64,000 nt of DNA from the NCBI RefSeq assembly GCF_003332305.1, contig NZ_QOIO01000023.1, forward strand, positions 1 to 64,000, read 5' to 3'. The stretch's first letter is position 1; each line of letters begins with the position of its first letter. The DNA is from Microvirga aerophila. Lineage in GTDB: Bacteria; Pseudomonadota; Alphaproteobacteria; Rhizobiales; Beijerinckiaceae. Below are positions 27,634 through 53,440 of this stretch, piece after piece. The position numbers and the translations under genes were made by a program. Below the pieces are notes generated by a model, which searched no databases, was not told where the DNA came from, and worked only from the letters and a program-made list of their open reading frames with translations.

Positions 27634-27665
27634 AGGCGTGACGGCAGCTGCTGGCCGTCACGCCT
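27634..27665 (-). terminator. Strong hairpin at the end of tctA
   Basis: AGGCGTGACGGC (27634-27645) and its exact reverse complement (27654-27665) form a 12-bp stem with an 8-base loop, touching the tctA stop codon. There is no T-run on the minus strand; it probably ends or attenuates the tctCBA transcript before cobW. Confidence 0.55.
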
Positions 27666-29170: not shown

Positions 29171-29181
29171 CTCGATCGCTC

Positions 29182-29631: not shown

Positions 29632-29684
29632 GGACAGTCCTTCGATCTACGAAAGTGCTGGGGACGTCATGTGGGCAGAGGCAA

Positions 29685-29719
29685 CGCAAATGGCGGGCGC
29701 ATAACGCCCGCCATTTGCG
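29685..29719 (-). promoter_or_regulatory. 15-bp perfect hairpin between tctC and tctB
   Basis: CGCAAATGGCGGGCG (29685-29699) and its exact reverse complement (29705-29719) with a 5-base loop, starting a few bases after the tctC stop. Such hairpins after binding-protein genes usually stabilise the 5' message or partly terminate it, giving more binding protein than permease. Confidence 0.65.
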
Positions 29720-29724
29720 CAGGA

Positions 29725-31171: not shown

Positions 31172-31200
31172 TTGACACGGAGATGACGCGCTCTCTAAGT
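31172..31200 (+). promoter_or_regulatory. Sigma-70-type promoter for the aldehyde dehydrogenase operon
   Basis: TTGACA (31172-31177), a 17-base spacer and CTAAGT (31195-31200). The -35 context TTGACACGGA is the same as in the promoter at 47349-47377. Confidence 0.55.
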
Positions 31201-31205
31201 TTATG

Positions 31206-31219
31206 ATGTCTTATGACGT
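31206..31219. promoter_or_regulatory. Probable GntR operator, site 1
   Basis: ATGTC-TTAT-GACGT, an inverted repeat with one mismatch, five bases after the -10 box. Within 31201-31222 it is nearly identical to 47325-47346 in front of the second TTT operon and its GntR gene (18 of 22 bases match by eye). Confidence 0.6.
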
Positions 31220-31345
31220 TTTATCCGCAAAGGCTTCAAGCCTGACCTCTTGAAGGGGGTCGGAGGCGCGTCAGCGGGCAGACCCGCGCGTTATGAGCGA
31301 GAGTTTGAAGACTCATTCGCCAGCACAGCTCTTCGGAAGGCAAGC

Positions 31346-32743
31346 ATGATCCACTCAATCAACCCCTCAACCGGCGACACCCTCGCCAGTTTCGACGAGC
31401 ACACACCGGACGCCATCGAGCAGGCTCTCGCGCAAGCGGTGCAAGCGCAACGGGATTGGGCCAAGAGACCGATCCCGGAGCGGGTCCAGCTTCTCACGAA
31501 AGCGGCTGAAGTTCTGCGGGCCAAAAAGGCGGATTATGCCGCTTTGATCACGGCTGAGATGGGCAAGCCGATCGTCGAGGCCGAAGCCGAGATCGAGAAA
31601 TGCGCCTGGAATTGCGACTTCTATGCCGAGAAGGCGGAGGAGTTCTTGGCGCCCGAGATCGTCGTAAGCAATGCGGCGGAAAGCTCCGTCGTGTTCGATC
31701 CGTTGGGCGTCGTGCTGGCGATCATGCCGTGGAATTATCCCTTCTGGCAGCTCTTCCGATTCCTGGCCCCGGCGCTTGCCGCCGGCAACGGCGCGGTTCT
31801 GAAACACGCCAGTAACGTGCCGCAATGCGCTCTCGCCATCGAGGACGTGCTGCGGGAGGCGGGAGCGCCCGATGGGCTGTTCCGCACGCTCCTGATCGGC
31901 CCCTCGGCTGTTGAGGCCGTCATCGCGGATCCCCGCATCGCCGCCGTGACCCTGACCGGCTCGACGGAAGTCGGCAGTCTGGTGGCGAGCCAGGCGGGCC
32001 GTCAGCTCAAGAAACAGGTGTTGGAGCTCGGAGGCTCCGATCCATTCATCGTGCTGGCGGATGCCGACGTAAAGGAGGCGGCAGCCGTCGCCACCCGCGC
32101 CCGGTTCCTCAATGTCGGGCAGAGCTGCATCGCGGCCAAGCGCTTCATCGTCGAGGAGAGCGTTGCCGACGAGTTCGTGGCGGCCCTCTGCGCCCGTGTG
32201 GAAGCCCTGGTCGTCGATGACCCCATGAACCGTGAATCCAATATCGGCCCGATGGCGCGCGCCAATCTGCGTGACGATCTCAAGTCGCAGATCGAGCGCT
32301 CCATCGGAGCAGGCGCCGAGCTGAGGCTTGGAGGCAAGCCACTCGACCGGCCAGGCTTTTACTATGCGCCGACGGTTCTTGACCGGGTGACTCCGGACAT
32401 GGCGGCGTTTGCCGAGGAAACCTTCGGGCCAGCAGCCGCCGTGATCCGGGTTCGGGATGCGGAGGAAGCGATCACCCTTGCCAATGCGACGGAATTCGGC
32501 CTAGGCGCAGCGCTTTGGACCCGCGATATCGACCGGGCTCGCCAGCTGGCCCGGCGCATTGAAGCTGGCGCTGTCTTCATCAACGGCATGGTGGCGTCCG
32601 ATCCCCGGCTTCCGTTCGGCGGCATCAAGAAATCAGGCTATGGGCGCGAGCTTGGCGAGTTCGGCATCCGCGAGTTCACCAATATCAAGACCGTGTGGAT
32701 CGGTCCTGCCAAGGATGCAAACAAAGTGACCTTGTCCGAGTAA
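31346..32743 (+). CDS. NAD(P)-dependent aldehyde dehydrogenase (succinate-semialdehyde type)
   Basis: A 465-residue ALDH-superfamily enzyme. The catalytic Cys is in NVGQSCIAAKRF, the general-base Glu in LELGGSDPF, and the cofactor loop is LTGSTEVGSLV. IMPWNYPFWQ and a C-terminal LPFGGIKKSGYGRELG complete the pattern. Shortness (465) and the N-terminal INPSTGDTL fit the Sad/GabD succinate-semialdehyde dehydrogenase group, though other semialdehydes are possible. The start has GGAAGG five bases upstream. It is first in an operon with a cupin, an Ldh2-type dehydrogenase and an ABM protein, under a probable GntR operator. Confidence 0.9.
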   Translation: MIHSINPSTGDTLASFDEHTPDAIEQALAQAVQAQRDWAKRPIPERVQLLTKAAEVLRAKKADYAALITAEMGKPIVEAEAEIEKCAWNCDFYAEKAEEFLAPEIVVSNAAESSVVFDPLGVVLAIMPWNYPFWQLFRFLAPALAAGNGAVLKHASNVPQCALAIEDVLREAGAPDGLFRTLLIGPSAVEAVIADPRIAAVTLTGSTEVGSLVASQAGRQLKKQVLELGGSDPFIVLADADVKEAAAVATRARFLNVGQSCIAAKRFIVEESVADEFVAALCARVEALVVDDPMNRESNIGPMARANLRDDLKSQIERSIGAGAELRLGGKPLDRPGFYYAPTVLDRVTPDMAAFAEETFGPAAAVIRVRDAEEAITLANATEFGLGAALWTRDIDRARQLARRIEAGAVFINGMVASDPRLPFGGIKKSGYGRELGEFGIREFTNIKTVWIGPAKDANKVTLSE

Positions 32744-32765
32744 GGCGCCAAGGCACGAGAGGACA

Positions 32766-33200
32766 ATGACGATGAGTGACATGAAAGAACCCGTAGGGGC
32801 GGTGCTTCGCCCATCCGAGATCACGCCGGCCGAGCGCGGCGGCGGAGCGCGAACCATTCCTCTCGTGACCAAGAAGATCGGGTCGACGAGCATGTTGAAC
32901 GGCATCACGTCCTTCGAGCCGGGTGCGGCCATTCCGCTTCACAGCCACAATTGCGAGGAGAGCGTCATGATCCTCGAGGGGCGCGCCGTTGCCGAAATCG
33001 ACGGCGTGGAGCACGAGCTCGGCCCCCACGACACGACCTGGATCCCCTCCGACGTGCCGCATCGTTTTCGCAATGCGTCCGACACCGAGCCGATGCGCAT
33101 CTTTTGGACCTACGCCTCCGTCGACGCCACGAGGACTCTGATCGCCACCGGAGAAACCCGTGCGGTCTCAGCCGAGCACGCGAAGGGGGCGGGCCAGTGA
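32766..33200 (+). CDS. Cupin-domain protein
   Basis: A 144-residue single cupin. Motif 1 is IPLHSHNCEESVMILEG (His, His, Glu ligands) and motif 2 is WIPSDVPHRFRN with the last His, so a metal site is likely. An ATG six bases in (32772) has slightly better spacing from the GAGAGGA site. The stop overlaps the GTG of the next gene. In catabolic operons such cupins often act as small dioxygenases, isomerases or lactone-handling enzymes; the exact reaction is unknown. Confidence 0.82.
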   Translation: MTMSDMKEPVGAVLRPSEITPAERGGGARTIPLVTKKIGSTSMLNGITSFEPGAAIPLHSHNCEESVMILEGRAVAEIDGVEHELGPHDTTWIPSDVPHRFRNASDTEPMRIFWTYASVDATRTLIATGETRAVSAEHAKGAGQ

Positions 33201-34279
33201 AGCCTCTCGAGACGTCCTCGCCGACCAGCGATCGCGTGCCCGCCGCGGCCATTCACGCCTTCATCGAGACCTCCTTCAGAAAAGTCGGCCTCCCCGACGC
33301 CGACGCCGCCAAGGTTGCGCGCCTCATGACCGAGGCCGACCTGTCGGGCGCCGACGCTCATGGGGTCTTCCGCCTGCCGCAATATGTGCAGCGCATCCAA
33401 ACCGGGGGCATCAACCCCAAGCCTGCAATCCGGGTCGACCGCAGGGCTCCCGCGACCGCCCTTGTCGACGGAGACAATGGGATGGGCCATCTCGTCATGG
33501 CCCGCGCGGCTGAGACCGCGATCGAACTCGCGCGCGAAACCGGCGTCGCTTGGGTTGGCGCACATCATTCCAACCATGCGGGTCCGGCCGCCCTCTATGC
33601 CTCCATGCCGGTCGAGCACGGCATGATCGGCTTGTATTCGGCGGTTGCGAGCGCCAACCATATGGCGATCTGGGGCGGCGTCGAGGCCCTGCTTGGGACG
33701 AACCCGCTGGCGGTGGGTATTCCGGCAGGCGAGGAGCCGCCGGTCATTCTCGACATCGCCACCACCATGGTGTCGTACGGCACGATCAAGAACTATGCGC
33801 TGCAAGGTAAGAGCATTCCCGAAGGCTGGATCATCAAGCGCGCGGACGGGGAACCCCTGACGGACCCGAAACGCAGCAGCGAAGGCCTTCTGCTGCCCAT
33901 CGGCGGCTACAAGGGCAGCGGCCTTGCGTTGATCCTGGGTCTGCTCGCTGGAACGTTGAATGGCGCAGCCTTTGGCCGGGACGTGGTGGACTTCAATGCC
34001 GATACGGTGACCGAGACCAATACTGGTCACTTCATCGTCGCCGTCGACGTATCGCGTTTCGCTCCCCTCGACACTTTCAAGGCCGAAGTCGACCGGCATA
34101 TGCGCGACATGCGGGATTCTGAGCGCCTGCCCGGCTTCGACGCGATCCGGATTCCGGGCGAGCAGCGGGAAGCGCGCATCAGAAGCCGCTCGCGCGACGG
34201 GGTTCCCCTGTCGGCCGAGCTTCGCAAGAAGCTCGATGACCTTGCGGCCCAACTCGGAATCGATCCAATCAGAACCTGA
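33197..34279 (+). CDS. Malate/L-lactate dehydrogenase family (Ldh2) oxidoreductase
   Basis: A 360-residue NAD(P)-dependent dehydrogenase of the Ldh_2 family, unrelated to classical lactate dehydrogenase. Marks are GADAHGVFRLPQYV with the His and Arg, the catalytic WVGAHHSNHAGPAA segment and GTNPLAVGIPAG. Known members oxidise or reduce malate, sulfolactate, ureidoglycolate or delta-1-piperideine-type substrates. The GTG start overlaps the cupin stop (GTGA). In this operon it may handle a 2-hydroxy acid formed by the pathway. Confidence 0.88.
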   Translation: MKPLETSSPTSDRVPAAAIHAFIETSFRKVGLPDADAAKVARLMTEADLSGADAHGVFRLPQYVQRIQTGGINPKPAIRVDRRAPATALVDGDNGMGHLVMARAAETAIELARETGVAWVGAHHSNHAGPAALYASMPVEHGMIGLYSAVASANHMAIWGGVEALLGTNPLAVGIPAGEEPPVILDIATTMVSYGTIKNYALQGKSIPEGWIIKRADGEPLTDPKRSSEGLLLPIGGYKGSGLALILGLLAGTLNGAAFGRDVVDFNADTVTETNTGHFIVAVDVSRFAPLDTFKAEVDRHMRDMRDSERLPGFDAIRIPGEQREARIRSRSRDGVPLSAELRKKLDDLAAQLGIDPIRT

Positions 34280-34353
34280 AGGCGCGGCTAGACGAGCCGC
34301 CTTTCGCTGAGATCAGAGGCTCGTGCTTTGCGAGCCGACAAGGAGCTGTACCC

Positions 34354-34653
34354 ATGATCCTCGAGATCGCCCAGATCGACGTAAAGCCAGGCATGGAGGC
34401 CGAATTCGAGGCCGGAGTGGCCAAGGCCGCACCCCTGTTCCAGCGGGCGAAGGGCTGCATCACCATGGAGCTGCAGCGCTCGATCGAGAAGCCGAGCCGC
34501 TATCGCCTCTTCGTTCGCTGGGAGACCCTGGAGAACCACATGGAGGATTTCCGCAACTCCGCGGACTTCCAGGAGTGGCGCAATCTCGTGGGACCCTTCT
34601 TCGAGAAGCCGCCCGAGGTCGAACATACGCACCAAGCCTTCCACGGTTTTTGA
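34354..34653 (+). CDS. Antibiotic biosynthesis monooxygenase (ABM) domain protein
   Basis: A 99-residue ferredoxin-like dimeric protein. The ABM pattern is clear: MILEIAQIDVKPGMEAEFE, then AKGCITMELQRSIEKPSRYRLFVRWE (around YRLFVRWE) and FRNSADFQEW. Family members are cofactor-free quinol monooxygenases or heme-degrading enzymes, or accessory proteins. It closes the aldehyde dehydrogenase operon, followed by a strong terminator. Confidence 0.85.
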   Translation: MILEIAQIDVKPGMEAEFEAGVAKAAPLFQRAKGCITMELQRSIEKPSRYRLFVRWETLENHMEDFRNSADFQEWRNLVGPFFEKPPEVEHTHQAFHGF

Positions 34654-34669
34654 TTTCGTAACGCACAAG

Positions 34670-34706
34670 AAAAAGCCTGCCGCGGATCGCTCCGGGCAGG
34701 CTTTTT
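34670..34706. terminator. Bidirectional intrinsic terminator
   Basis: AAAAAGCCTGCC (34670-34681), a 13-base loop and GGCAGGCTTTTT (34695-34706). T-runs lie at both ends on the respective strands, between two convergent operons. Confidence 0.92.
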
Positions 34707-34720
34707 GGTTTCGTGGCGGC

Positions 34721-35839
34721 TCAGGCCGCCAGTTCGCCCACAACTTCCGGCGCAAGCGGAAGCTGAACCGGCTTCTTGAGCTTGGCCGAGAGATCGAGCG
34801 CCTTGGTGAGCATGAGGTTCCGGTGCGCCTCGGCGGCGGTGGCCGCCTGTGTGGGCAGGCCCAAGGACACACGGTTGAGCCAGGAATCCGTCTCTTCCCG
34901 CATGGGGCCGCGCAGCTCGCCAAGGGCCATGTCGCCAGGTGGGTAGCTGCCGAGGAAGTCCACGAGACGTCTCGTGTCCGGCGCATAGCCTTCCGCCTGC
35001 GGAGCGGACACGGCCATCACGATGTCCCGGTGCGTGTCGTCGATGGTGATCACCCCATCGGTGCCGTTGATGCCGACCTCGAGGCTGTAGACTGCACCCG
35101 GCCAGGTGACCGGCAGAGCCCACGAGATGTTGAGGTGGTACACGCTGCCGTCGGAGAACATGATCATTCCGGCGGTTGCATCGATGCCGCCGTATTCCGG
35201 ACCGAGCACCTTGTCGACCGAGCGGGCATAGACCTCCACCGGCGTCTTCTGCTCCATGTACCACATGACGATATCGAGCGCGTGGGTGCCCGAGATCACC
35301 ATGGGCGAGATGGTCGACGGATCGTCCGTGCGCTTGTAGTTGTCGATGGCCACGAGCCTGTTCATGAAGGCCCGCGAGGTAACCATCGTCACGTCGCCGA
35401 GGGCGCCGTTGCGCACCTTCTCCTTGGCCGAGAGCCATTTCCGGCGGAAGCGCTGGGTATAGCCTACTACCGCGTCCACGCCTGCGGCTTCGATAGCGCG
35501 CAAAACCTGAGCGGAGGCCGCAAGATCGGTGGCTAGCGGCTTCTCGATTAGCATCGGAAAGCCGCGCTCGACCGAGGCCATCACCGGGTCCACGTGAAGG
35601 TGTTCGTCCGTCGCGATGATGACCGCGTTCACCTCAGGGCGGGCCAAGAGCTCCCGGTAATCGGACGTGACGAAATCCGCCCCGACCTTGTCGGCCACCA
35701 TCTTCGCCCGGTCCGGGTTGATCTCGGCGAGACCGATCCATTCCACGGCCGGATGCCTGGCCGCAACTTCACCCCGGAACAGGCCGACGCGCCCTGCCCC
35801 GATGATCGCAAGGCCAATTCCTTTAGCTGACTTTTTCAA
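34721..35839 (-). CDS. Gfo/Idh/MocA-family oxidoreductase (paralogue 1)
   Basis: A 372-residue NAD(P)-dependent oxidoreductase. The Rossmann motif is AIIGAGRVG near residue 12, the family's EKPLATD motif carries the catalytic Lys, and a DxxxH-type pair sits in SGTHALDIVMWYM. The TTG start is accepted because GGGAGGA lies seven bases upstream; it overlaps the previous gene by 17 bases. Family members oxidise or reduce sugars, inositols, cyclic diols and, in some cases, aromatic dihydrodiols. It is the last gene of the six-gene operon led by a flavin reductase. Confidence 0.9.
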   Translation of the reverse strand: MKKSAKGIGLAIIGAGRVGLFRGEVAARHPAVEWIGLAEINPDRAKMVADKVGADFVTSDYRELLARPEVNAVIIATDEHLHVDPVMASVERGFPMLIEKPLATDLAASAQVLRAIEAAGVDAVVGYTQRFRRKWLSAKEKVRNGALGDVTMVTSRAFMNRLVAIDNYKRTDDPSTISPMVISGTHALDIVMWYMEQKTPVEVYARSVDKVLGPEYGGIDATAGMIMFSDGSVYHLNISWALPVTWPGAVYSLEVGINGTDGVITIDDTHRDIVMAVSAPQAEGYAPDTRRLVDFLGSYPPGDMALGELRGPMREETDSWLNRVSLGLPTQAATAAEAHRNLMLTKALDLSAKLKKPVQLPLAPEVVGELAA

Positions 35840-36914
35840 GCTTCTTTCCTCCCTTTAGGTCCGCAATGGCTGCAATCGACCTGTTCGAAAGCGGTAGATC
35901 GACCGGCTCGTTGATTTCGGCCGAGAGATCCGCGGCCGTATAGGTTTCCATCACCATGCGCGCATGCTCCGGCGCGACCATGACGGGCCGGTCCAGAAGA
36001 ATGGATTCGATGAAATGGATCGTCTCGGGCCCCATCTGACCTGCGAACACGTGGTCGACCTGCTCGCCCGGCATGGTCGACATGGGAAAGCGCGTCCCGT
36101 CCGAGACGGTGTTCAGCCAATGGTCGCGGTGGGTGTCGTCGAGGATGAGCGCCCCCTCGGTTCCGGTGATCTCGATCCAGGTGGACGAGAAGTTCGGATA
36201 GCTCGGCGGAAGGTTCCAACCGCCGCCGATCACGACCAGCATCCCGTTGTCCATGGTGACCGTGGTCCACATGCAGTCATAGGAGCCGTTGATGTGCTCC
36301 ATGTAGCCATAGGCGCCCTGGGAATAGACCCGCACGGGCTTCGCCGGCTCGAGAAGCCAGAAAACGAAATCGAGGTCGTGGGTGGATTCCATCGCGGCCG
36401 GCGACAGCTTGACCCTGGACGCGATCTTCTTGCCCAGGCTGCGCGACAGATGGCGGCTCACCATCACGTTCACCACACGGCCCAGGGTGCCGTCGGTGAT
36501 CTTTTTCTTGGCATAGGCAATCTTGGGGTTGAAGCGCTGCGAATAACCGATCGTGAACTTGAGATTGTTGCGCTTCGAAATGGCGATCAGCTCGTCCGCC
36601 TCCCAGATCTCCAGGGCGATCGGCTTTTCCAGCATCACGTGCTTGCCGGCCCGCAGGCAATCGCGAGCGATGGGGAAGTGGCTGTTTTCCGGTGTGGTCG
36701 AGATGAAGACGATCTCGATCTTGTCGTTGTTGATGATGTCCTGATAATCCAGCGTCGCCGTCGCCGGATTGGTCAGGGCCTTGACCTCCGCCAGCCGCTC
36801 GGGACGGATCTCGCAGATATGCAGCTTGTCCACGAGAGCCGAGCGCGCCAATGTCTCGGCGCGGATCCCCCCGACCCAGCCGGTTCCGATCACGCCGACT
36901 TCAACCTGCTTCAT
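35823..36914 (-). CDS. Gfo/Idh/MocA-family oxidoreductase (paralogue 2)
   Basis: A 363-residue oxidoreductase with GVIGTGWVG near residue 8, the EKPIALE catalytic-Lys motif near 95 and MESTHDLDFVFWLL holding the Asp/His region. It is clearly related to, but diverged from, its two neighbours. The ATG has GGGAG upstream. The stop overlaps the TTG start of paralogue 1, so the two are coupled and may form a heteromer or act on successive intermediates. Confidence 0.9.
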   Translation of the reverse strand: MKQVEVGVIGTGWVGGIRAETLARSALVDKLHICEIRPERLAEVKALTNPATATLDYQDIINNDKIEIVFISTTPENSHFPIARDCLRAGKHVMLEKPIALEIWEADELIAISKRNNLKFTIGYSQRFNPKIAYAKKKITDGTLGRVVNVMVSRHLSRSLGKKIASRVKLSPAAMESTHDLDFVFWLLEPAKPVRVYSQGAYGYMEHINGSYDCMWTTVTMDNGMLVVIGGGWNLPPSYPNFSSTWIEITGTEGALILDDTHRDHWLNTVSDGTRFPMSTMPGEQVDHVFAGQMGPETIHFIESILLDRPVMVAPEHARMVMETYTAADLSAEINEPVDLPLSNRSIAAIADLKGGKKLEKVS

Positions 36915-37028
36915 TGACGTCTATCTCCCTGAATTTCCTTCCCGACGAGCGCCGATAGCGGATCGCCGAAAACCCCGGACATGAATGCCGGGCTTGCACT
37001 GTTCATTGTATGACCGATCTTCCAGTTC

Positions 37029-38060
37029 TCATGCGGAGACGGCGATCGGTCGCGGCCGGATCTCGATGTTCTCGACACGGACCAGGATGTTCTTGATTGC
37101 CGACTGGCAGATGGCCTCGAGAACTGCGATGTTGCCCATCTTCTGCGCATCGGTAAACGGATACTCGGTGCCAGCCTCGATTGTGTCCGCAAAGGCTTCG
37201 AGGTTTCGGCGTACCGCGTCTTCCCAGGGGAACTCGATGATCTCCCGGTGGCCGTTGCGGTGCTGGTAGGTCAGTGTCGTCATTCCGGGCGTGTCCGGAT
37301 GGGTGTGATTGCGGATCTCCACCCAGGCATCCGAGCCGAATACGATCATGCCGATATAAAGCGGCGTGACCAAAATCGCATTGAGATACCCTGTCGCGCC
37401 CGACGCAAAGCGGAAATGCGCCGACACTACGTCGCCGTTCGGCCGCTTCGAGACCCTTTGCGCGGTCTGGGCGTAGACTTCAGTGATGGGACCGAACAGA
37501 TCGAGGTAGAGATCCGTCAGATGAATGCCCATGGCGGTCATGCCGGCGGCAGGCGCATCGACGGGCGAAGCGCGCCAATCGCCCTCAGGCACAGCGGCCA
37601 GCTTATCGTGACTGAAATTCGCCTCGACATGCATGATGGTGCCCAGCACCCCTTCCCTCACCATGCGCCGCAACTCGATGGCGGCTGGCTCGAACCGCCG
37701 TTCATGGCCGATGCCGAGCAGCACGTTCGCCGCCCGGCAGGCTTCGATGGAGCATTCGGCGTCCGCGCGCGTAAGGGCCAGAGGCTTCTCGCAGAAAACG
37801 TGCTTGCCGGCGGCAGCCGCGGCCAGAACCTGCCGCGTGTGCATGGAATGAGGCGTGCAGAGGATGACCGCGTCGATGCCCGGATCGCTCAAAACGTCAT
37901 CCCAATCCGTCGTGAGGCGAAGCCCATGCTCCGCCGCGAAGGCGGCCTGAGCGTTCGAGGTTTCGAGCGCGGTCACGATCTCGAGTTTCCTCGAGTCCTG
38001 CATGCGACGGACCAGATGCTTGCCCCACCATCCCAAACCGGCAATCGCTGCCCGAACCAT
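37029..38060 (-). CDS. Gfo/Idh/MocA-family oxidoreductase (paralogue 3)
   Basis: A 343-residue oxidoreductase. It has AIAGLGWWGKH at the N-terminus, EKPLALT with the catalytic Lys and GIHLTDLYLDLFG as the Asp/His helix. The ATG follows AGGAGG by a few bases, 27 bases after the hydrolase gene. A 114-base gap separates it from paralogue 2. Three different Gfo/Idh proteins in one operon suggest several redox steps on a polyol-like or cyclic intermediate. Confidence 0.9.
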   Translation of the reverse strand: MVRAAIAGLGWWGKHLVRRMQDSRKLEIVTALETSNAQAAFAAEHGLRLTTDWDDVLSDPGIDAVILCTPHSMHTRQVLAAAAAGKHVFCEKPLALTRADAECSIEACRAANVLLGIGHERRFEPAAIELRRMVREGVLGTIMHVEANFSHDKLAAVPEGDWRASPVDAPAAGMTAMGIHLTDLYLDLFGPITEVYAQTAQRVSKRPNGDVVSAHFRFASGATGYLNAILVTPLYIGMIVFGSDAWVEIRNHTHPDTPGMTTLTYQHRNGHREIIEFPWEDAVRRNLEAFADTIEAGTEYPFTDAQKMGNIAVLEAICQSAIKNILVRVENIEIRPRPIAVSA

Positions 38061-38087
38061 CGTTTCCTCCTGCTTCCTGTCTGACGC

Positions 38088-38891
38088 TCACCCCGCGAGG
38101 AATGCGCAGACCGCTTCGTTGAAGGCTTTAGGGTTCTCAAGGTTGGCAAGGTGCGCCGCCGCTGGGATCTCCGCGAATTTAACCCCCGGGATCTGGTCGG
38201 CCATCGAGCGCATCTCTGCCGGATGGACTCCATCGGCCGACCCCACGACCAGACAGGCGGGACACTTGATCTCGCTCAGGCGGCTTTTGTAGTTCAGCCC
38301 GCGCAAGGCTTCAGTCGCGCCAACATAGCCCTCGCGGGATGTGTCGAGGATCATGCGGCGCACCCTTTCGACCTTGTCGGGATGCTGGTTTCGCGTCTCT
38401 TCCGTAAGCCATGTGGGAATCGTGACTTCGGCGATGGCTTCTATGCCTTTTTCCTCCAGGACTTTCTGGCGATCCGCCCACATGTTGCGGAAGAAGTCAG
38501 GCGCATCGGATCGGCAGTCGGCCGCAACGATCCGGGTCACCCGGGAGCCATGGTCGAGGGCCAGTCCGAAGGCGGTCATGCCGCCCATGGACAGGCCCAG
38601 AACGGCCGACTTCTCGATGCCAAGATGATCCCAGATCGCCACCACGTCCTTTGCAAGCTGATCGAAGCTGTAGGGCCCCTGCACGGGAGCAGACCCGCCG
38701 TGCCCGCGCGCGTCGATGCGCAGGACCCGGAAGCTTTTCGTCAACTCCTCGACCTGATCGTCCCAGAGCTCCGCCCGGGTAGCGAGCGAGTGCAGGCACG
38801 TCAGCCAAGGCTTGTCCTCGGGCCCGTCGATGAGAACCCGGAACTCGGTTCCGTTAGCGGCGATCGTCAATTCCTGCGACATCGAGCTCAT
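38088..38891 (-). CDS. Alpha/beta hydrolase (3-oxoadipate enol-lactonase-like)
   Basis: A 267-residue hydrolase of the PcaD group by its pattern. The nucleophile Ser is in LGLSMGGMTA, Asp in VVGSADGVHP and His in PAAAHLANLENP; the oxyanion region is TCLHSLATRAELW. PcaD-like enzymes open enol-lactones in ring-cleavage pathways, but the group also hydrolyses esters and C-C bonds. The ATG overlaps the stop of the LLM monooxygenase as ATGA, so it probably acts directly on the oxygenated product. Confidence 0.88.
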   Translation of the reverse strand: MSSMSQELTIAANGTEFRVLIDGPEDKPWLTCLHSLATRAELWDDQVEELTKSFRVLRIDARGHGGSAPVQGPYSFDQLAKDVVAIWDHLGIEKSAVLGLSMGGMTAFGLALDHGSRVTRIVAADCRSDAPDFFRNMWADRQKVLEEKGIEAIAEVTIPTWLTEETRNQHPDKVERVRRMILDTSREGYVGATEALRGLNYKSRLSEIKCPACLVVGSADGVHPAEMRSMADQIPGVKFAEIPAAAHLANLENPKAFNEAVCAFLAG

Positions 38892-39991: not shown

Positions 39992-40566
39992 GAGCAGCAC
40001 TCTCTTTGGATGGCGGCGGGCTGAACTATTGTCGACGCTTCGCGGACAGATTCAGGTTTCGGGAAAAGAGCCGGCACACAGAAGGAGCCGGCGCTGAAAA
40101 TCAGTGGCTCGCCGTCGGCATAGACGGCTCTTTCGACGCGGCCAATGAAGATCAAATGATCGCCACCCTCAACAACGCTGTGCGTGGAGCACTCGAACGT
40201 CGCGAGGCTATCGGTCAGAAGCGGGCAACCGCCGAAGCCGATCTCATGCGCAATATCGGCGAACTTGTCCTGGGCAGGGGTCGCAAAATGCTTGCAATGG
40301 GAATGCTGGTGCGTTCCCAGAACATTGACCGCAAAGGATCCCGACGAGCGGAAGCTCTCGAGAGAAGGAGCGCGCTTCTGCAGGCTCCACAAGACCAGTG
40401 GCGGATCAAGGGAAACGGACGAGAAGGAGTTGGCCGTCAATCCTTCGAGCTTGCCGTCCGGCCCGCGGGTCGTGACCACCGTCACGCCGGTCGCGTAGCG
40501 GCCGAGGGCTTGGCGGAGATGCATCGGGTCTTCGACCGTTTTGAAACTCATGCGCGGCTGATTCAT
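39988..40566 (-). CDS. Flavin reductase (FMN-binding split-barrel)
   Basis: A 192-residue HpaC/flavin-reductase-like protein. The family marks are ALGRYATGVTVVTT, LEGLTANSFSSVSLDPPLVLWSL (around TANSFSSVSLDPPL) and FAVNVLGTHQ. It should supply reduced FMN or FAD to the LLM monooxygenase encoded by the next gene, which it overlaps by four bases. It is first in the operon and divergent from the LysR regulator. Confidence 0.92.
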   Translation of the reverse strand: MNQPRMSFKTVEDPMHLRQALGRYATGVTVVTTRGPDGKLEGLTANSFSSVSLDPPLVLWSLQKRAPSLESFRSSGSFAVNVLGTHQHSHCKHFATPAQDKFADIAHEIGFGGCPLLTDSLATFECSTHSVVEGGDHLIFIGRVERAVYADGEPLIFSAGSFCVPALFPKPESVREASTIVQPAAIQRECCS

Positions 40567-40652
40567 CTGATGGGGTCATCCTGTCTTTCGCAGCCCATGG
40601 CCGCACGATGGGAGGATGTGATTGACCGGAAGATACCCTCGACGCCTCAGCG

Positions 40653-40693
40653 CATAAAATGATATGATCTGCTCGCGTCCATTATGTTTTATG
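40653..40693. promoter_or_regulatory. Candidate LysR operator between the flavin reductase and LysR genes
   Basis: CATAAAA (40653-40659) and TTTTATG (40687-40693) form an inverted repeat with a 27-base spacer in an AT-rich stretch, next to the LysR start. LysR proteins usually bind such symmetric AT-rich sites and control the divergent operon as well as themselves. Confidence 0.45.
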
Positions 40694-40701
40694 ATAACTC
40701 T

Positions 40702-41625
40702 ATGCTGGAAAGCCTGCGCGACATCCGACTGTTTGTGGCCGTTTACGAGGAACGGTCATTTACGGCTGCGGCCACCCGTGAAAACGCCACGCAATCCGGC
40801 GTATCCCAGCATATCCGCAAGATCGAGAACCGCTTCGGCGTGAAGCTCTTCGGGCGGGGAAGCGGAGCCGTCATTCCGACGCCGGCCGGTGACAGCTACT
40901 ACCGACACTGCATCGACGTCCTGCGCAGCAACGAAGCGGCGACCCGGGCGCTGATGGGATTCAGCAGCGGGCTCGAGGGCGAGATCACCGTTGGGTTGAT
41001 GCCCACCATGACACGCTGTGCCATGGCGCCCGCGCTCGCGAAATTCATGGATGCCCATCCCAATGTCATGGTGCGCATCGTCGAGGCCTATTCGGCGCTC
41101 CTGACCCAGCAGGTGCGCGCAGGGGAGCTCGATTTCGCGGTGGTTCCCGCCTTCGACGACGCTGTCGGGTTGAAAAGCCGCCTTTTGGCGCGAACGCCGG
41201 AGGTGCTAGTCTCGGATGGGCGGCTAAACCTCCAGCACATGGCGCCCGTTCGCCTGGCCGATCTTGGTCCGCTCAAATTCGTCGTTCCGGGAGGTCAGAA
41301 TACCCGGCGGCGCAATCTCGAAACCTATTTCTCATCGAACGGCGTTCATGTCGGGCGCGTGCTAGAGCTCGACGCCATGCTAGGGACCCTCGATCTCGTG
41401 TCCCATTCGGACTGGGTGACAATCCTGCCCGGCGTGATGATGGCCAGCGATATCGAGAGTCGGCACTATGTCATCAATCCTCTGGCTCAGCCGTCCCTCA
41501 AGACCGATCTCGTGCTTATCGAACCAGCCCGTAGGCCGCTGTCGCTCGCGGCGGAAACCTTTCTGGAGGCTCTTGAGCAGGAGACGAAACGGCTCAACAC
41601 CCTTTGGGGCTCGACACTCGATTGA
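40702..41625 (+). CDS. LysR-family transcriptional regulator
   Basis: A 307-residue regulator. The N-terminal winged helix reads LRDIRLFVAVYEERSFTAAA followed by SGVSQHIRKIENRFGVKLFGR (around SQHIRKIENRFG), then a linker helix and a periplasmic-binding-like effector domain starting GEITVGLMPT. The ATG at 40702 gives the usual family start; an earlier in-frame ATG at 40684 is possible. It is divergent from the six-gene monooxygenase operon and probably activates it with a pathway intermediate as effector. Confidence 0.92.
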   Translation: MLESLRDIRLFVAVYEERSFTAAATRENATQSGVSQHIRKIENRFGVKLFGRGSGAVIPTPAGDSYYRHCIDVLRSNEAATRALMGFSSGLEGEITVGLMPTMTRCAMAPALAKFMDAHPNVMVRIVEAYSALLTQQVRAGELDFAVVPAFDDAVGLKSRLLARTPEVLVSDGRLNLQHMAPVRLADLGPLKFVVPGGQNTRRRNLETYFSSNGVHVGRVLELDAMLGTLDLVSHSDWVTILPGVMMASDIESRHYVINPLAQPSLKTDLVLIEPARRPLSLAAETFLEALEQETKRLNTLWGSTLD

Positions 41626-41771
41626 TCTGTCAGTCTTTACAGCAATTTAACTCGTTATAATGACCTTTGCCGATACTGCATAGCTGTGCTGCAATGCGGG
41701 AGATTGTGCGCTGCGGCGCACAAAGTAAAAGGGGCGCAACGAAACTCTGTTGTGTCTTCTGGAGCATTCCC

Positions 41772-41927
41772 GTGTCTACCGCTGTCGCCATTCTTCGTTC
41801 GACTCCCAATGTCTTCGCTGGAATCTTGGCCCTTCGTCGGATCCTACGGATCGTCTCGGAAGCGATCGCGGAGGGCAAGGAAATGCGCGAGCATTACCGC
41901 CGCCAGTACCCGTCCCTCGACTGGTAA
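41772..41927 (+). CDS. Small hypothetical protein, 51 residues
   Basis: Starts with GTG after a TGGAG site and reads VSTAVAILRSTPNVFAGIL, then a basic helix (RRILRIVSEAIAEGKEMREH) and YRRQYPSLDW. The hydrophobic start and amphipathic basic helix suggest a membrane-associated or DNA/RNA-associated small protein of rhizobial type. It ends nine bases before the convergent MFS gene. Confidence 0.5.
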   Translation: MSTAVAILRSTPNVFAGILALRRILRIVSEAIAEGKEMREHYRRQYPSLDW

Positions 41928-41935
41928 GCTGCCGT

Positions 41936-43213
41936 CTAAGATTGGGACTGAGTTGCGGCTCTGGCCGCGGAAGGGAGGAGCCGACGCTCCTCCTCCTTGG
42001 TGAGTGGCGTCAGCAGTGCGAAGCTTGCCAGCGGCAAAATTGCCAACAGGAAAAAAGCCACACTCCACGAGCCGCTTTGCTCCACGGCGAGCCCGAACAC
42101 CACACCGGCCCCGGCACTGACGACCCGAATGATAGTGCCTTGCAGGCCGATTGCCATTCCGGCCCGGGCATGACCGGCCATTTCGGCCGCAGCCGTAAAG
42201 GCTAGGCCGTTCCAAGCCAGGCCCAGCACCCCTGCGATCAAAAGCGCGGCGATCAGCAATGGAAGCGGCGCATCGACGACAAGCGCTGACCCCATGAGCG
42301 CCAAGGACAGCCAGAGCGCCTGTCTGCGGATCGGCGGCACGCGCCTCCCGGAGCGATCCGACCAGCGCCCTGCCAAAACGCGCATCGTGCCTCCACCGAT
42401 ATTGATGAACGCAAGGACGAGGGCCGCAAGGGTGACGGGAAGGCCCCGATGTTCGGTCAGGAAGATCACCATGAAACCGTTCATGGCCACCTGACTGCAC
42501 ACGAGGAGCCCCGCGCAAAACGCTAAACGCCAGAGCGCCGGATCACGCACGGGCGACGGCAGATCGGTGTGGCCCGAGTCTTCGCGAGCGACGCGGGGAG
42601 ACGCCAGCCAAATGGCCGCGCAGACGGCTCCGAGCGCAGCCGCGCCGGCGATGACCGTAAAAGCCGCACCAAGCCCCGCAGCCGCAGCAGTCAGGGGTAG
42701 AACGAGGGCCGCGATAGCGCTTCCGAGCGGAATCGACATCTGGCGAATGCCAAGGGCGAAACCACGCTCCGAACGTGAGAACCAATGCATGACCGCGCGT
42801 CCCGACGCCGCCGAAGACGCGGAGCCGAGGGCTCCCGCAAGGGCAAGCCAAGCGACGAGTGCGCCAAGTCCATCCGCTCGTGACGCGATCAGCACCGCAA
42901 CGGCGGAGCCGCCGAGGCCGATGGCGATGATCAAGCGCTCGCCATACCGGTCCGCGAGCATGCCCCAGATCAGGAGGGTGCTCATGATCCCCCAATTGGC
43001 GGAGGCGAGAACCAGCCCTACCTCGGGAAGGCTCAGGTCGAAATGAGAGCGCAGCACGGGTCCGAGGGCCGGGAGCCCGTGCTGAAGGGCGGCGAGCGCC
43101 GCTTGAGCAACGACTCCCACGGCAAGAATAACCCACCGATACCGGTGTTGGTCGGGAGCTCCCCCGTGCTGATGCTCCCGGTCGGCTTCCTGCTCCTGCC
43201 GAGGCGCAGGCAT
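41936..43213 (-). CDS. MFS transporter
   Basis: A 425-residue membrane protein with twelve predicted helices. The loop 2-3 motif GMLADRYGERLIIAIG matches the MFS signature, repeated as AGRWSDRSGRRVPPI in the second half. The cytoplasmic N-terminus is charged and His/Gln-rich. It lies 8 bases after the amidohydrolase gene as the last member of the tctCBA-amidohydrolase operon. An aromatic acid or carboxylate permease would fit, but exporters are equally possible by sequence. Confidence 0.88.
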   Translation of the reverse strand: MPAPRQEQEADREHQHGGAPDQHRYRWVILAVGVVAQAALAALQHGLPALGPVLRSHFDLSLPEVGLVLASANWGIMSTLLIWGMLADRYGERLIIAIGLGGSAVAVLIASRADGLGALVAWLALAGALGSASSAASGRAVMHWFSRSERGFALGIRQMSIPLGSAIAALVLPLTAAAAGLGAAFTVIAGAAALGAVCAAIWLASPRVAREDSGHTDLPSPVRDPALWRLAFCAGLLVCSQVAMNGFMVIFLTEHRGLPVTLAALVLAFINIGGGTMRVLAGRWSDRSGRRVPPIRRQALWLSLALMGSALVVDAPLPLLIAALLIAGVLGLAWNGLAFTAAAEMAGHARAGMAIGLQGTIIRVVSAGAGVVFGLAVEQSGSWSVAFFLLAILPLASFALLTPLTKEEERRLLPSAARAATQSQS

Positions 43214-43221
43214 CGCGCCGA

Positions 43222-44256
43222 TCAGCCGGCCTGTGCGGCCCGCTTGGCAGGAGACTGCACATCACCCAGAAGGCCGGCGGCGGCCGTTCCGAGGATCAGG
43301 TTTCTGTCCTCGATGGATGCCTTGAGGGCACGCACCTGCTTGACGCAGTCCAGCAGGCCCATGTCGAACGGATAATCGCTTCCAAGCAGCACATGATCGG
43401 CCCCGAACGTTTCGACCAGATAGCGCAGGGCGGGCTCGAAATGCAGGATGCAATCGAAATAGAGCCGGCGGATCGATGCTTCCGGCGCTTCCTTCAGGTT
43501 CACCTTGCCCTCAGGCCGCACGTCGTAGCCGTGGTTCATGCGGCCGGTCTGGTAGGGCATGAAGCCGCCGCCATGGGCGAAGCAGAACTTGAGATCCGGG
43601 TACCGCTCAAGCACGCCGCCGAACACGAGAGATGCGGCCGCGATGGTGGTGTCGAGCGGGTTACCGATCAGGTTCTTGAGATAGTAGGACTTGAGGCGGT
43701 CATTGGCGGCGGTCTTCTGGGGGTGGACCAGAATGAAGGCGCCGAGTTCCGCTGCAGCCGCCCAGAGCGGTTCGAGCGCCGGGTCGTCGAGGTTGCGCCC
43801 CTCCACGTGGGAGCCGATCTGCGCGCCGCGAAGTCCGAGTTCCGTCATCGAGCGGCGAAGCTCCGCAACGGCGCGCTCCGGGTCCTGCATCGGCAGCGTG
43901 GCGATGCCGAGGAACCGGTCGGGATGTTGGCTGACGACTTTTGCGATTTCCTCATTCTGGATCGCCGAGAGCGTGGCGGTCAGCGCGGGATCGCGATCAT
44001 ACAGGAAGGTCTGCGGGCAGACCGACAGCACCTGCACGTCGACTTCCGCCGCGTCCATGTCGCGAAGCCTGAGCTCCAGGTCCCATGCGCCTCGCGGGAA
44101 AGGCCGCTGGACGATGCTGCCCACGGTCAGCACGCCGCCCTCCTGATCGACCTCGCTCAATGTCGGACCGATGTCGGGCGCTTCCGCGCGCATGCGGCGC
44201 ATCGTTTCCTCGGTGAGGATATGTGCGTGAACGTCGATGGTTCGAACGGTGGTCAT
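43222..44256 (-). CDS. Amidohydrolase (ACMSD/decarboxylase-like)
   Basis: A 344-residue TIM-barrel metal enzyme of the amidohydrolase-2 family. Metal ligands are visible as TIDVHAHIL (His-x-His), FILVHPQK (His) and LLGSDYPFDMG (Asp), with the family HGGGFMPYQ loop. Its relatives include 2-amino-3-carboxymuconate-6-semialdehyde decarboxylase and gamma-resorcylate or 5-carboxyvanillate decarboxylases, so non-oxidative decarboxylation of an aromatic or muconate-type acid is the likely activity. It is between tctA copy 2 and the MFS gene. Confidence 0.88.
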   Translation of the reverse strand: MTTVRTIDVHAHILTEETMRRMRAEAPDIGPTLSEVDQEGGVLTVGSIVQRPFPRGAWDLELRLRDMDAAEVDVQVLSVCPQTFLYDRDPALTATLSAIQNEEIAKVVSQHPDRFLGIATLPMQDPERAVAELRRSMTELGLRGAQIGSHVEGRNLDDPALEPLWAAAAELGAFILVHPQKTAANDRLKSYYLKNLIGNPLDTTIAAASLVFGGVLERYPDLKFCFAHGGGFMPYQTGRMNHGYDVRPEGKVNLKEAPEASIRRLYFDCILHFEPALRYLVETFGADHVLLGSDYPFDMGLLDCVKQVRALKASIEDRNLILGTAAAGLLGDVQSPAKRAAQAG

Positions 44257-44264
44257 ATCAGGTC

Positions 44265-45797
44265 CTATTTGGTTGCGATGGAGATTTGCTGCTCATTGCG
44301 GCTCCGGCGCCTGGCCCGGTGACGCGTGAACATGCTCATCAGAGGAAGAAGCAGGGAGGCGATGACGAGGAGAAGAAGGATGGCCGAGAGCGGGCGCTGC
44401 ACGAAGATCGAAAGGCTGCCCTCCGAGAGCATCAGCGACTGCCTCAGGGAACTCTCCATCAAACTCGCCAAAACCACGGCGAGCACGACCGGCGCTCTGG
44501 GAAGGTCGGCCTTCATCATGAGATAGCCGACCATGCCGAAGAAGAGTGTAAGGCCTACGCTGAACAGGCTGAGCGTCGTCGCGTAGGCGCCCACGAGCGA
44601 GATCACCAGGATGCCCGGCGCCAGATACTCGTAGGGAATCCTCAGAAGCGCCGCGAACAGAGGCGCCAGCGGGAGATTAAGCACCAGCAGGATGACGTTG
44701 CCGATGAACATGCTGGCGATCAGGCCCCATACGAGATCGGCCTGCTCAACGAGGAGCGTGGGGCCGGGGCGAATGCCCTGCAGAACCAGCGCCGCGAGCA
44801 GCACCGCCGTGGAGGCCGATCCCGGGATGCCGAGCGCGAGCATCGGAATGAGCGCGCCGTGAGCCGCGGAGTTGTTGGCGGATTCAGCCGCGGCCACGCC
44901 GTCGAGCGCGCCATTGCCGAAACGCTCGGGATGGCGGCTGAACCGCTTTTCCGTCACATAAGCCAGGATCGCCGCAACCGTGGGCCCTGCCCCGGGCATG
45001 AGCCCGATCAAAAAGCCCAGGACTCCGCCGCGTAGGATGGCGATGCGGCACTCGGCCCAGTCCTTGCCGCTGAGCCACATGTCCTTGAGCCGGGTCTTGA
45101 TCGGTTCGGAATCGTAACTCTGCTCGAGCGAGGCCAGGACCTCGGCGATGCCGAAGATGCCGATGGCAACCGGCAGGAAGTCGATGCCGTCGAGAAGCTC
45201 GGTGCTCCCGAAGGTGAGTCGTGCGCTGCCGAGGATCGGGTCCGTGCCGACGAGCGCGATCATGAGGCCGAACACGGCCATCAGGATCGCCTTGATGGGC
45301 GAACCCGATCCGATGCTCGCGGTCGCCGTGATGCCGAGGGTGGCAAGCAGGAAGTATTCCGGCGACGAGAAGCTGAGCGCGAATTCCGCCAGCGGCGGCG
45401 TGACGAACACCAATGCGATGACCGCGCCGACGCCGGCAAGGAACGATCCGATTGCTGAGACGCTGAGCGCCGCCCCCGCCCTGCCCTGCTTGGCGAGCCT
45501 GTGGCCGTCCACAGCGGTCATAACGCTTGCGGCCTCACCCGGCACGTTGACGAGAACAGAGGTAAGGGTGCCGCCATACATGCCGCCATACATGATGCCG
45601 GCCAGCATCATGATGGCGGTCGCAGGAGGAATGCCGAAGGTGATTGGCAGGAGAAGGGCCATGCCGGCCGATGGGCCAAGACCCGGCAGGGCGCCGATCA
45701 GCTGGCCCAGGCACACGCCGACGAAGATGAACAGGAGGTTCATCGGCGTTAGGGCGATCGCGAACCCTTGCCCGAGAGAGACTAAAGAATCGATCAT
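44265..45797 (-). CDS. tctA: Tripartite tricarboxylate transporter large permease (TctA family), copy 2
   Basis: A 510-residue membrane protein with the TctA signature GALPGLGPSAGMALLLPITF (around ALPGLGPSAGM) near residue 38 and the second GLMPGAGPTVAAIL. About twelve helices. It is distinct in sequence from copy 1, so the two uptake systems probably have different solutes. It is coupled within tctC-tctB-tctA-amidohydrolase-MFS. Confidence 0.93.
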   Translation of the reverse strand: MIDSLVSLGQGFAIALTPMNLLFIFVGVCLGQLIGALPGLGPSAGMALLLPITFGIPPATAIMMLAGIMYGGMYGGTLTSVLVNVPGEAASVMTAVDGHRLAKQGRAGAALSVSAIGSFLAGVGAVIALVFVTPPLAEFALSFSSPEYFLLATLGITATASIGSGSPIKAILMAVFGLMIALVGTDPILGSARLTFGSTELLDGIDFLPVAIGIFGIAEVLASLEQSYDSEPIKTRLKDMWLSGKDWAECRIAILRGGVLGFLIGLMPGAGPTVAAILAYVTEKRFSRHPERFGNGALDGVAAAESANNSAAHGALIPMLALGIPGSASTAVLLAALVLQGIRPGPTLLVEQADLVWGLIASMFIGNVILLVLNLPLAPLFAALLRIPYEYLAPGILVISLVGAYATTLSLFSVGLTLFFGMVGYLMMKADLPRAPVVLAVVLASLMESSLRQSLMLSEGSLSIFVQRPLSAILLLLVIASLLLPLMSMFTRHRARRRSRNEQQISIATK

Positions 45798-45818
45798 GAA
45801 CTTGATCCTTGGAGAGCG

Positions 45819-46271
45819 TCAGATGCCGAGCACGCCCTTGGGAAAAGCAATCCCGAGCCAGGCAGAGAACACGCCATACACGAGCGCCATCGTGAGAGCG
45901 GTTGTGAACAGGCTGGGCACGAGGCGGCGGCGCTCAACGAAAATGAGCAAGAACAACATGAACAGAAGAGCGGTCGCCATCAGCCCGATGATGGGCGCAA
46001 GGACGATGACCGCCCACAGGCCTGCAGCAGTGAGGATCACCCGCTGCAGGCCTGTGCGATCTGGCCAGTCGACGGGCGGATTGGTTTGCCGGCGCAGGGC
46101 GCCGACAAAGAGAGCGATGGAAAGGACAGCGCCCGTCGCGGCGACCCAGAATGGCGCAAAGGCCGATCCGGGTGCGAAATCCGCCCAGTATGGCAAGTCG
46201 CGGGTGGTCGCGAAGACCACCCCCGACAGGACGAGCATGACTACCGCGCTGACGATATCCGCAGTCTTCAT
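45819..46271 (-). CDS. tctB: Tripartite tricarboxylate transporter small permease (TctB family), copy 2
   Basis: A 150-residue protein with four hydrophobic helices and a loop PYWADFAPGSAFAPFWVA in the place of the TctB SRMGPGFFP motif. The last part, GVFSAWLGIAFPKGVLG, is typical for TctB C-termini. It lies 21 bases upstream of tctA and 15 bases after tctC. Confidence 0.9.
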   Translation of the reverse strand: MKTADIVSAVVMLVLSGVVFATTRDLPYWADFAPGSAFAPFWVAATGAVLSIALFVGALRRQTNPPVDWPDRTGLQRVILTAAGLWAVIVLAPIIGLMATALLFMLFLLIFVERRRLVPSLFTTALTMALVYGVFSAWLGIAFPKGVLGI

Positions 46272-46286
46272 GACGGTTCCAATGAC

Positions 46287-47297
46287 CTACTTGGCAAGTC
46301 CGAGGTCTTTGAGAACGGCAAGGTGCTGGTTGTGCAGCTCGACGAAATGCGCCTTAGCCTGGCTGGCCGGCACCACCTCGCTGCGCAGGAACATCTCCTT
46401 GACCATCGCCTTCCAGGCATCGGTGGCGACGAGCTTCTGGATCGCATCGTCCCAGAACTTTACGAGCGCAGGATCCATGTCCGGCGGTCCGGCAAGGCCC
46501 CAGGACTGACCCCAGAGAATGTCGTAGCCCTGCTCTTTGGCGGTCGGGATGTCCTTGAACTCCGGCTCGGTGCGGCGCTTCTCGCTCAAGACAGCCAGAA
46601 CCTTGGCCTTGTTGCTCTTGATGAGCGGAAGGGCTTCGCTCGGGGGCAGCACGATCATGTCGACGTTGCCGCCGAGGAACGCCGTCGCGGCTGCGCCGCC
46701 GCCGTCGAACGGCACGTAGTTGAGTTTTGCGCCGCTGGCCTTCTCGATCAGTCCCGTCACCATGTGATCGGTCGAGCCGGCCTGGGCGCCGGCCACCTTG
46801 ATGCCGCGCTCGCGCTGCTTGGCCAAGTCGATGAAGCCCTTGAAGTCCTTCGCCGGAGAATTCGGCTGCACGGCGATCAGGAGATCGCCCTGGATGAACA
46901 TGCTGATCGGCGTGAGCTTGTCGTAGAGCGTCGGCTGACCGGTGGTGATCGGCGTGGTAAGGATCGGCTGGGCGACCGTCAGGACGGTGTTTGCATCGCC
47001 CTTCTTGTTGAGAACCCAGTTGGCCGCCACCATCCATGAGCCGCCGGTGCGGTTCTGCACCACGAGCGGGTTCGTGATGATCTTCTCGTCGTTGAGGATC
47101 TTTGCGGCGCGGCGCATGAGAACGTCAGGAGTACCGCCAGGGCTGGTGCCGGAGGTGATCTCAATGGGGCCGGTCGGAGCCTTGCCCTGGGCAAAGCCAG
47201 GTTGGACGCCCAGCATCAATGCCGCCGTCGTCACGGCAGCTCCCATCATCATGAGACGGCGATTGCATCGGGACGAGATACTTCCAGTGGTATGCAT
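46287..47297 (-). CDS. tctC: TTT-family periplasmic substrate-binding protein (Bug/TctC), copy 2
   Basis: A 336-residue exported protein. A basic N-terminus (SSRCNRRLMMMG) is followed by a hydrophobic signal and cleavage near GFAQ. The mature part starts PIEITSGTSPGGTPDVLMRR (around TSPGGTPD), the ligand loop of Bug proteins, and has GAQAGSTDHMVT as the second loop. It is first in its operon, facing the GntR gene across a promoter with an operator. Confidence 0.92.
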   Translation of the reverse strand: MHTTGSISSRCNRRLMMMGAAVTTAALMLGVQPGFAQGKAPTGPIEITSGTSPGGTPDVLMRRAAKILNDEKIITNPLVVQNRTGGSWMVAANWVLNKKGDANTVLTVAQPILTTPITTGQPTLYDKLTPISMFIQGDLLIAVQPNSPAKDFKGFIDLAKQRERGIKVAGAQAGSTDHMVTGLIEKASGAKLNYVPFDGGGAAATAFLGGNVDMIVLPPSEALPLIKSNKAKVLAVLSEKRRTEPEFKDIPTAKEQGYDILWGQSWGLAGPPDMDPALVKFWDDAIQKLVATDAWKAMVKEMFLRSEVVPASQAKAHFVELHNQHLAVLKDLGLAK

Positions 47298-47324
47298 GGT
47301 TGGCTTCCTCCGTATCCTGGCTTA

Positions 47325-47346
47325 TTATGACGTCCTAAGACGTTTT
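47325..47346. promoter_or_regulatory. Probable GntR operator, site 2
   Basis: The core ACGTC-CTAA-GACGT (47330-47343) is a perfect inverted repeat. It lies between the tctC promoter and start and beside the GntR gene, so it can repress the operon and the regulator. It is the match of the operator at 31201-31222. Confidence 0.65.
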
Positions 47347-47348
47347 GA

Positions 47349-47377
47349 GACTAGGTCTTGCTTTCCTTCCGTGTCAA
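47349..47377 (-). promoter_or_regulatory. Sigma-70-type promoter for tctC copy 2
   Basis: On the minus strand TTGACA (47377-47372), a 17-base spacer and CTAGTC (47354-47349). The -35 region shares TTGACACGGA with the promoter at 31172, and the operator follows the -10 by a few bases in both. Confidence 0.5.
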
Positions 47378-53322: not shown

Positions 53323-53440
53323 GCCCACCCTGCGAATGATGGAGCGAGCGTCGCCTAGCCCTGGCGATGACGTCAATTAATCCGAAAGGATATTGCGAGC
53401 TTCGACGCCTTCTGCATCGACGGAATTGCCATTTTAGCCC

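Follow-up and report, generated by a model that had tools for sequence, protein, structure and literature searches.

The best solved relative of the regulator considered here is NagR (YvoA) of Bacillus subtilis, a GntR protein of the HutC subfamily with the same combination of a winged helix-turn-helix (wHTH) and a UTRA domain. As described in PMC4333415, NagR represses a small catabolic regulon from operators before nagAB-nagR and nagP, recognises two neighbouring guanines through Arg38 and Arg48, and has half-sites spaced by 6 nucleotides (nt). The HutC operator is given in PMC4494728 as NyGTMTAKACNy, with GT and AC 4 nt apart in most HutC sites and exceptions listed. We consider a GntR/UTRA protein of Microvirga aerophila (gene at 47443 to 48258, forward strand) and two copies of a palindromic site that we assign to it, in a stretch of 64,000 nt (contig NZ_QOIO01000023.1, positions 1 to 64,000) that we call the window. 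One copy precedes an operon of aldehyde dehydrogenase (aldh), cupin, Ldh2 dehydrogenase (ldh2) and ABM-domain genes, while the other lies between gntR and a divergent operon with tctCBA (a tripartite tricarboxylate transporter, TTT), amidohydrolase and MFS transporter genes. Judged by sequence comparison, the protein is with high probability the local repressor of this two-operon regulon, and would be released by a metabolite of the pathway.

A preliminary description of the window reported two near-identical 22-mers, at 31201 to 31222 (+) and 47325 to 47346, thought to differ at about four positions and to share a promoter design. Both are present at these positions, with three of the 22 positions unlike, and their cores had been correctly read as ATGTC-TTAT-GACGT (operator 1) and ACGTC-CTAA-GACGT (operator 2, inside the tctC/gntR divergon). 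The sequence TTGACACGGA is found upstream of both operators, at 31172 to 31181 (+) and 47377 to 47368 (-), and the distance from the start of the -35 hexamer to the operator centre is exactly 41 nt at both promoters. The promoter of the aldh operon (31172 to 31201, +) has TTGACA at 31172 to 31177 and, after 18 nt, TAAGTT at 31196 to 31201 as its best -10 reading; that of the tct operon (47348 to 47377, -) has TTGACA at 47377 to 47372 and, again after 18 nt, TAGTCT at 47353 to 47348. Because the operator comes directly after the -10 at this fixed distance, it should cover the likely transcription start in both promoters, the start of the aldh operon falling within operator 1. The part of the shared design that fails is the CGGA extension after TTGACA: it recurs outside the two window promoters only at the tct promoter of M. 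subterranea (the M. lenta sequence is TTGACATGGA) and is therefore not a conserved element. A candidate gntR promoter (47300 to 47328) overlaps into operator 2, a weak match in a region that holds six such matches against 3.2 in shuffled sequences; autoregulation of gntR is plausible.

How distinct are these sites from chance? A symmetric weight matrix was built from 12 sites of relatives with the window sites held out, yet it is not wholly independent of them, because the relatives' sites came from patterns modelled on the window's two. With this matrix operator 1 scores 32.4 bits and operator 2 scores 29.8 bits, the next-best place in the 64 kb reaches 9.7 bits, and the top score in 30 first-order Markov random windows is 11.2 bits. 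The best matches in the gaps, as delimited for the scoring, before tctC copy 1, the oxidoreductase genes gfo2 and gfo3, and the flavin reductase gene are about -2 bits or lower, and operator sites there are rejected. The scan of the genome with a motif that the preliminary description had proposed, made with RWNACGTCNTANGACGTNWY over 6.0 Mb, finds just the two window sites at up to one mismatch (0 in the reversed control) and 10 places against 7 in the control at up to two. A looser initial pattern at up to three mismatches gives 31 forward and 38 reverse matches, against 11 and 12 in the control. One weaker place in the genome (on C129, 19.2 bits in a matrix scoring that took in nine loci from pattern lists) overlaps a ribosome-binding site and a start codon and is probably due to chance. 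Since 44 of 150 related genomes hold some match to the motif at up to one mismatch, the motif alone proves nothing in other genomes.

The GntR/UTRA protein is 77 to 87% identical in M. subterranea, M. lenta, M. roseola and M. pakistanensis, 71% in a Hyphomicrobiales metagenome-assembled genome (MAG), 62% in Ancylobacter koreensis and 60% in a further genome of the same order (G395). The search for gntR relatives gave 14 loci, six of which (62 to 87% identity) were fully analysed. Three others (L028 to L030) were checked for sites; none within four mismatches was found, and two of them (L028 and L029) have GTC-N4-GAC within coding sequence. At least one site is present in all eight examined genomes with a gntR orthologue, the window genome included. 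Comparison of the orthologous loci, another step that had been suggested, bears out the pairing of the sites: in each of the four Microvirga relatives the tctC/gntR divergon holds one and a second stands ahead of aldh-cupin-ldh2, and Ancylobacter, with another gene order, has its sites at 2914, ahead of aldh (2952), and at 4400, ahead of tctC. The MAG and G395 have a single site each.

The promoters are kept along with the operators. TTGACA is found at the aldh promoter in all four Microvirga relatives, and at the tct promoter TTGACA and CTAGTCTCA are identical in the window and these four. Of 14 promoters, two from the window and 12 from relatives, 12 have an exact TTGACA, 11 have TANNNT in place and seven have the 41-nt distance; these seven are the two of the window, the tct promoters of three relatives and the aldh promoters of two. 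The remaining distances are 39, 39, 42, 43, 46, 51 and, at the Ancylobacter aldh promoter, 32 nt, both -35 assignments in Ancylobacter (TTGACG, TTGACT) being weak. The distance of 51 nt fits because the M. roseola tct site has an additional half-site 10 base pairs (bp) upstream. Conservation is 0.89 in the operator, 0.67 in the spacer and 0.53 downstream for four tct promoter sequences, and 0.75, 0.47 and 0.25 for three aldh promoter sequences, in sets that include the window, were chosen for an operator match at 41 nt and are hence biased toward the operator, and omit M. roseola tct, M. lenta aldh and M. pakistanensis aldh, which have other spacing.

Does the site follow the regulator? Among 48 Microvirga genomes the cupin is found in nine, five of them (the window genome included) with the gntR orthologue and four without. 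In the four loci lacking it (L099 to L102), all with aldh and cupin and three also with TTT, distant Ldh2 and ABM genes, no site within three mismatches was found in 19 to 20 kb, so that, in these imperfect controls, the site is absent wherever the regulator is absent (zero of four). The orthologue itself is rare: apart from the window genome it occurs in 4 of the other 47 Microvirga genomes, 397 genomes drawn from the order added one orthologue (E up to 1e-40), 385 drawn from the class added no other (E up to 1e-45), and a search of plasmids for relatives of gntR at E 1e-30 found nothing.

The strongest single argument for one shared pathway comes from G395, where gntR is divergent from a same-strand series of tctC-tctB-tctA-aldh-cupin-ldh2-amidohydrolase-hydrolase with one site between. 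Because most of both gene sets stand there in one series behind one site, the locus supports a common pathway for the two operons of the window. The site scores, the position after the promoter, the conservation, the association with gntR and the G395 series, all seen by comparison of genomes, thus make it most likely that the GntR/UTRA protein represses both operons; the site conservation, the genome scan and the G395 series likewise support the coordinating role that the preliminary description had proposed for it. In the mechanism that we infer, a GntR dimer would bind the palindrome ACGTC-NTAN-GACGT over the transcription start of both operons (aldh-cupin-ldh2-ABM and the divergent tctCBA-amidohydrolase-MFS) and keep RNA polymerase off the promoter or stuck there. 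Binding of a pathway metabolite by the UTRA domain would release the protein, and the uptake and breakdown genes would then be induced together. As a regulon this would be a local catabolic one of the ordinary kind; what stands out is the geometry of the operator.

Several observations weigh against such a regulon. The Ancylobacter tct series runs tctCBA-amidohydrolase-ldh2-gntR; its MFS, cupin and first ldh2 genes are upstream of both sites, which front only aldh and the series of tct, amidohydrolase and second ldh2, and no good site was found before gntR (best 9.0 bits). The single site of the MAG is in an amidohydrolase/gntR divergon, its cupin-ldh2 genes are without a site, and no aldh match was found in 20.7 kb. 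Matches to the MFS and ABM genes, which the preliminary description had included in the pathway, were not found at the G395 locus; its tctCBA, aldh, cupin, ldh2 and amidohydrolase members are all there. The four loci without gntR are a useful but imperfect control, because their Ldh2 (33 to 36% identity) and TTT genes (below 50%) are unlike and one locus (L102) is distant throughout, having only aldh (54%), cupin (66%) and a hydrolase. The genomes are related, so the counts are not independent. Finally, the aldh-side sites are weaker and more variable: they exceed one mismatch in three of the four Microvirga relatives, and those of M. subterranea and M. lenta have a degraded outer arm on one side.

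That the aldh-side sites are less well conserved than the tct-side sites would fit a GntR protein whose targets are confined to its own gene and the divergent tct operon, with the site on the aldh side a relic or a weak secondary site. We consider this very unlikely, since the aldh-side site is present in all four Microvirga relatives and in Ancylobacter, lies 39 or 41 nt from TTGACA in the Microvirga ones and, in the window, outscores the tct site. A role for another regulator, either the LysR protein (40684 to 41625) or an unlinked one, with gntR a mere neighbour of the site, we hold to be similarly improbable. The lysR gene, which the window has between the two operons, is retained in all four Microvirga relatives, and the third-best matrix match (9.7 bits, 40681 to 40700) overlaps its start, though within the range of the random windows; a lysR match was, however, not found in the Ancylobacter, MAG and G395 loci, all of which have gntR, and the site is absent from the four loci without a gntR orthologue. 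LysR is therefore rejected as the reader of the site.

Some GntR proteins act as activators. One FrlR report is read as activation in the account of PMC12632257, and an activating role at the present sites retains a slim chance; against it stands the operator directly after the -10, where it should cover the transcription start, which is the position of a repressor. As TTGACA is the consensus hexamer and matches within one mismatch occur in so many of the 150 genomes, the resemblance of the 22-mers could also be chance or trivial promoter similarity, a reading to which we give practically no weight and which is rejected on the matrix score, the conservation and the association with gntR.

The protein that we take to be the repressor of both operons has an N-terminal GntR wHTH (PF00392, 56.6 bits, cut-off 27) and a C-terminal UTRA domain (PF07702, 110.9 bits, cut-off 23.8), which places it in the HutC subfamily. 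Its nearest solved structures are NagR (E 2.8e-35) and DasR (E 3e-33), and its AlphaFold model is mediocre (mean predicted local distance difference test, pLDDT, 73). The first base-reading arginine (NagR Arg38) is T, S, V or P in the window protein and its orthologues; the second (NagR Arg48) is invariant and corresponds to R55. With R55 alone kept, the protein lacks the pair of arginines that would mark a NagR/DasR orthologue. The operators depart from the established GntR/HutC-type architecture ascribed to them in the preliminary description, for GT-N6-AC rather than the usual GT-N4-AC is found in both window sites and in all 12 matrix sites of the relatives. A paralogue in the window's own genome has TTGTCTAGACAA, with the usual spacing. 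An alternative reading of the site, as 10-bp direct repeats of TAWGACGTNN, leaves binding to a palindrome as one candidate mode. At two loci (L024:9879-9908 and L036:12980-13009) further half-sites prolong the operator in a 10-bp rhythm, which suggests that more than one dimer may bind there. In the literature searched on GntR operators GACGTC was not found, and a literature search for Microvirga and GntR gave nothing beyond a Pantoea plasmid paper, judged by its title.

Outside the genomes with gntR, seven places within one mismatch were examined (L078 to L084): four are within about 1.2 kb of another GntR gene, and three overlap long open reading frames (ORFs) with no GntR match in 20 kb. 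In three Microvirga loci (L078:9737-9756, L079:9915-9934 and L080:9904-9923) the palindrome is ATGACGTCATATGACGTCAT, one base being changed in L079 and L080, and is about 1.2 kb from a UTRA-type GntR gene. The product of this gene is only 27% identical to that of the window; it likewise lacks the first arginine, and its recognition helix carries SRIT. The L078 palindrome, the only one typed, is flanked by genes for a SIS-domain protein and a PfkB kinase, an frl-like setting when compared with the frl operon gene content of B. subtilis as given in PMC12632257. At 30 other UTRA loci, mostly of one core paralogue with GER and SRVT, GTC-N-TA-N-GAC was not found within 3.4 kb, a weak control because the usual spacing is not seen there either. 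A distinct class of UTRA repressors without the first arginine, mostly with SRIT, that act on GACGT-armed GT-N6-AC palindromes extendable in a 10-bp rhythm and serve unrelated pathways, such as the carboxylate-type regulon of the window and the frl-like setting of L078, is a tentative proposal that we rate somewhat below an even chance. The numbers are small and the link between residues and operator is weak; against it, the MAG orthologue has SRVT, as does the core paralogue without the site.

The aldh operon is read on the forward strand and comprises genes for the aldehyde dehydrogenase (Aldedh, 31346 to 32743; nearest solved chains are succinate-semialdehyde dehydrogenases), the cupin (Cupin_2, 32766 to 33200), the Ldh_2 family dehydrogenase (33230 to 34279, start uncertain; PDB relatives are malate or sulfolactate dehydrogenases) and, as its likely last gene, the ABM-domain protein (34354 to 34653). 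The placement of the ABM gene after ldh2 on this strand agrees with the preliminary description; a minus-strand ORF at 34288 to 34986, considered for the ABM gene, is an antisense artefact. The tct operon, on the reverse strand, starts with tctC copy 2 (46287 to 47297) and continues with tctB copy 2 (45819 to 46271), tctA copy 2 (44265 to 45797; orthologues of 83 to 94% in four Microvirga loci), the Amidohydro_2 gene (43222 to 44256; nearest solved relatives are ACMSD-type decarboxylases) and probably ends with the MFS transporter gene (41936 to 43213). The limits of both operons are putative. In a comparison of 10 proteins with NCBIfam, no family reached its cut-off among the matches listed, and the amidohydrolase and TctC matched nothing. 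From family membership we may guess that the TTT imports a carboxylate, that Ldh2 oxidises a 2-hydroxy acid, that the amidohydrolase carries out a decarboxylation, and that the aldehyde is oxidised. A literature search on the gene combination found no paper uniting these genes.

Between the operons, at 34724 to 40566, are genes for three GFO/IDH oxidoreductases, a PcaD-like hydrolase (an assignment below the NCBIfam cut-off), a luciferase-like monooxygenase (nearest solved structure, 3,6-diketocamphane 1,6-monooxygenase) and a flavin reductase, from which lysR is divergent. None of these genes, lysR included, has a site in the window that rises above background, and LysR may be their regulator. 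Another TTT set, tctCBA copy 1 (27665 to 30732), is divergent from the aldh operon and is without an operator; around aldh in the regions of M. subterranea, M. lenta and M. pakistanensis nothing matched it at 40% identity or above. In the MAG (L027), related tctCBA genes come after gntR and two GFO genes. Elsewhere in the window, an ORF at 52102 to 53376 (-) has collagen-like triple helix repeats (PF01391) in five stretches.

From these comparisons an uncharacterised GntR/UTRA protein can be given both an operator and a regulon of two operons, and the TTT importer and amidohydrolase are joined with the aldehyde dehydrogenase, cupin and Ldh2 dehydrogenase in one probably inducible pathway, the substrate of which can now be approached by inducer screening. 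A HutC-type repressor with a widened operator is also a test case for the rules by which arginines read guanines. Compared with NagR, the protein has another residue in place of Arg38 and retains Arg48 (as R55), and its palindrome is wider by two bases. The Streptomyces coelicolor regulator DasR, also of the GntR/HutC type, has the wHTH and UTRA domains in common with the present protein. Its operator has the usual GT-N4-AC core and it is a global regulator, whereas here there are two sites in one genome, with GT-N6-AC. PMC4494728 counts SdhR, of the HutC subfamily, among the exceptions to 4-nt spacing, giving TCTTATGTCTTATATAAGACATAAGA. The comparison with SdhR is one of operators: its palindrome is longer, with extra symmetry and without GACGT arms. 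In the DNA-binding domain, the likeness to the GntR protein AraR of B. subtilis is that a single reading arginine is retained in both. The effector domain of AraR differs from that of a UTRA regulator. According to PMC4333415, AraR forms its own subfamily, keeps one of the two reading arginines, and has half-sites spaced by six or eight, in operators described as non-palindromic. By analogy, the lone arginine and the wider operator of the Microvirga regulator would resemble the AraR mode of recognition.

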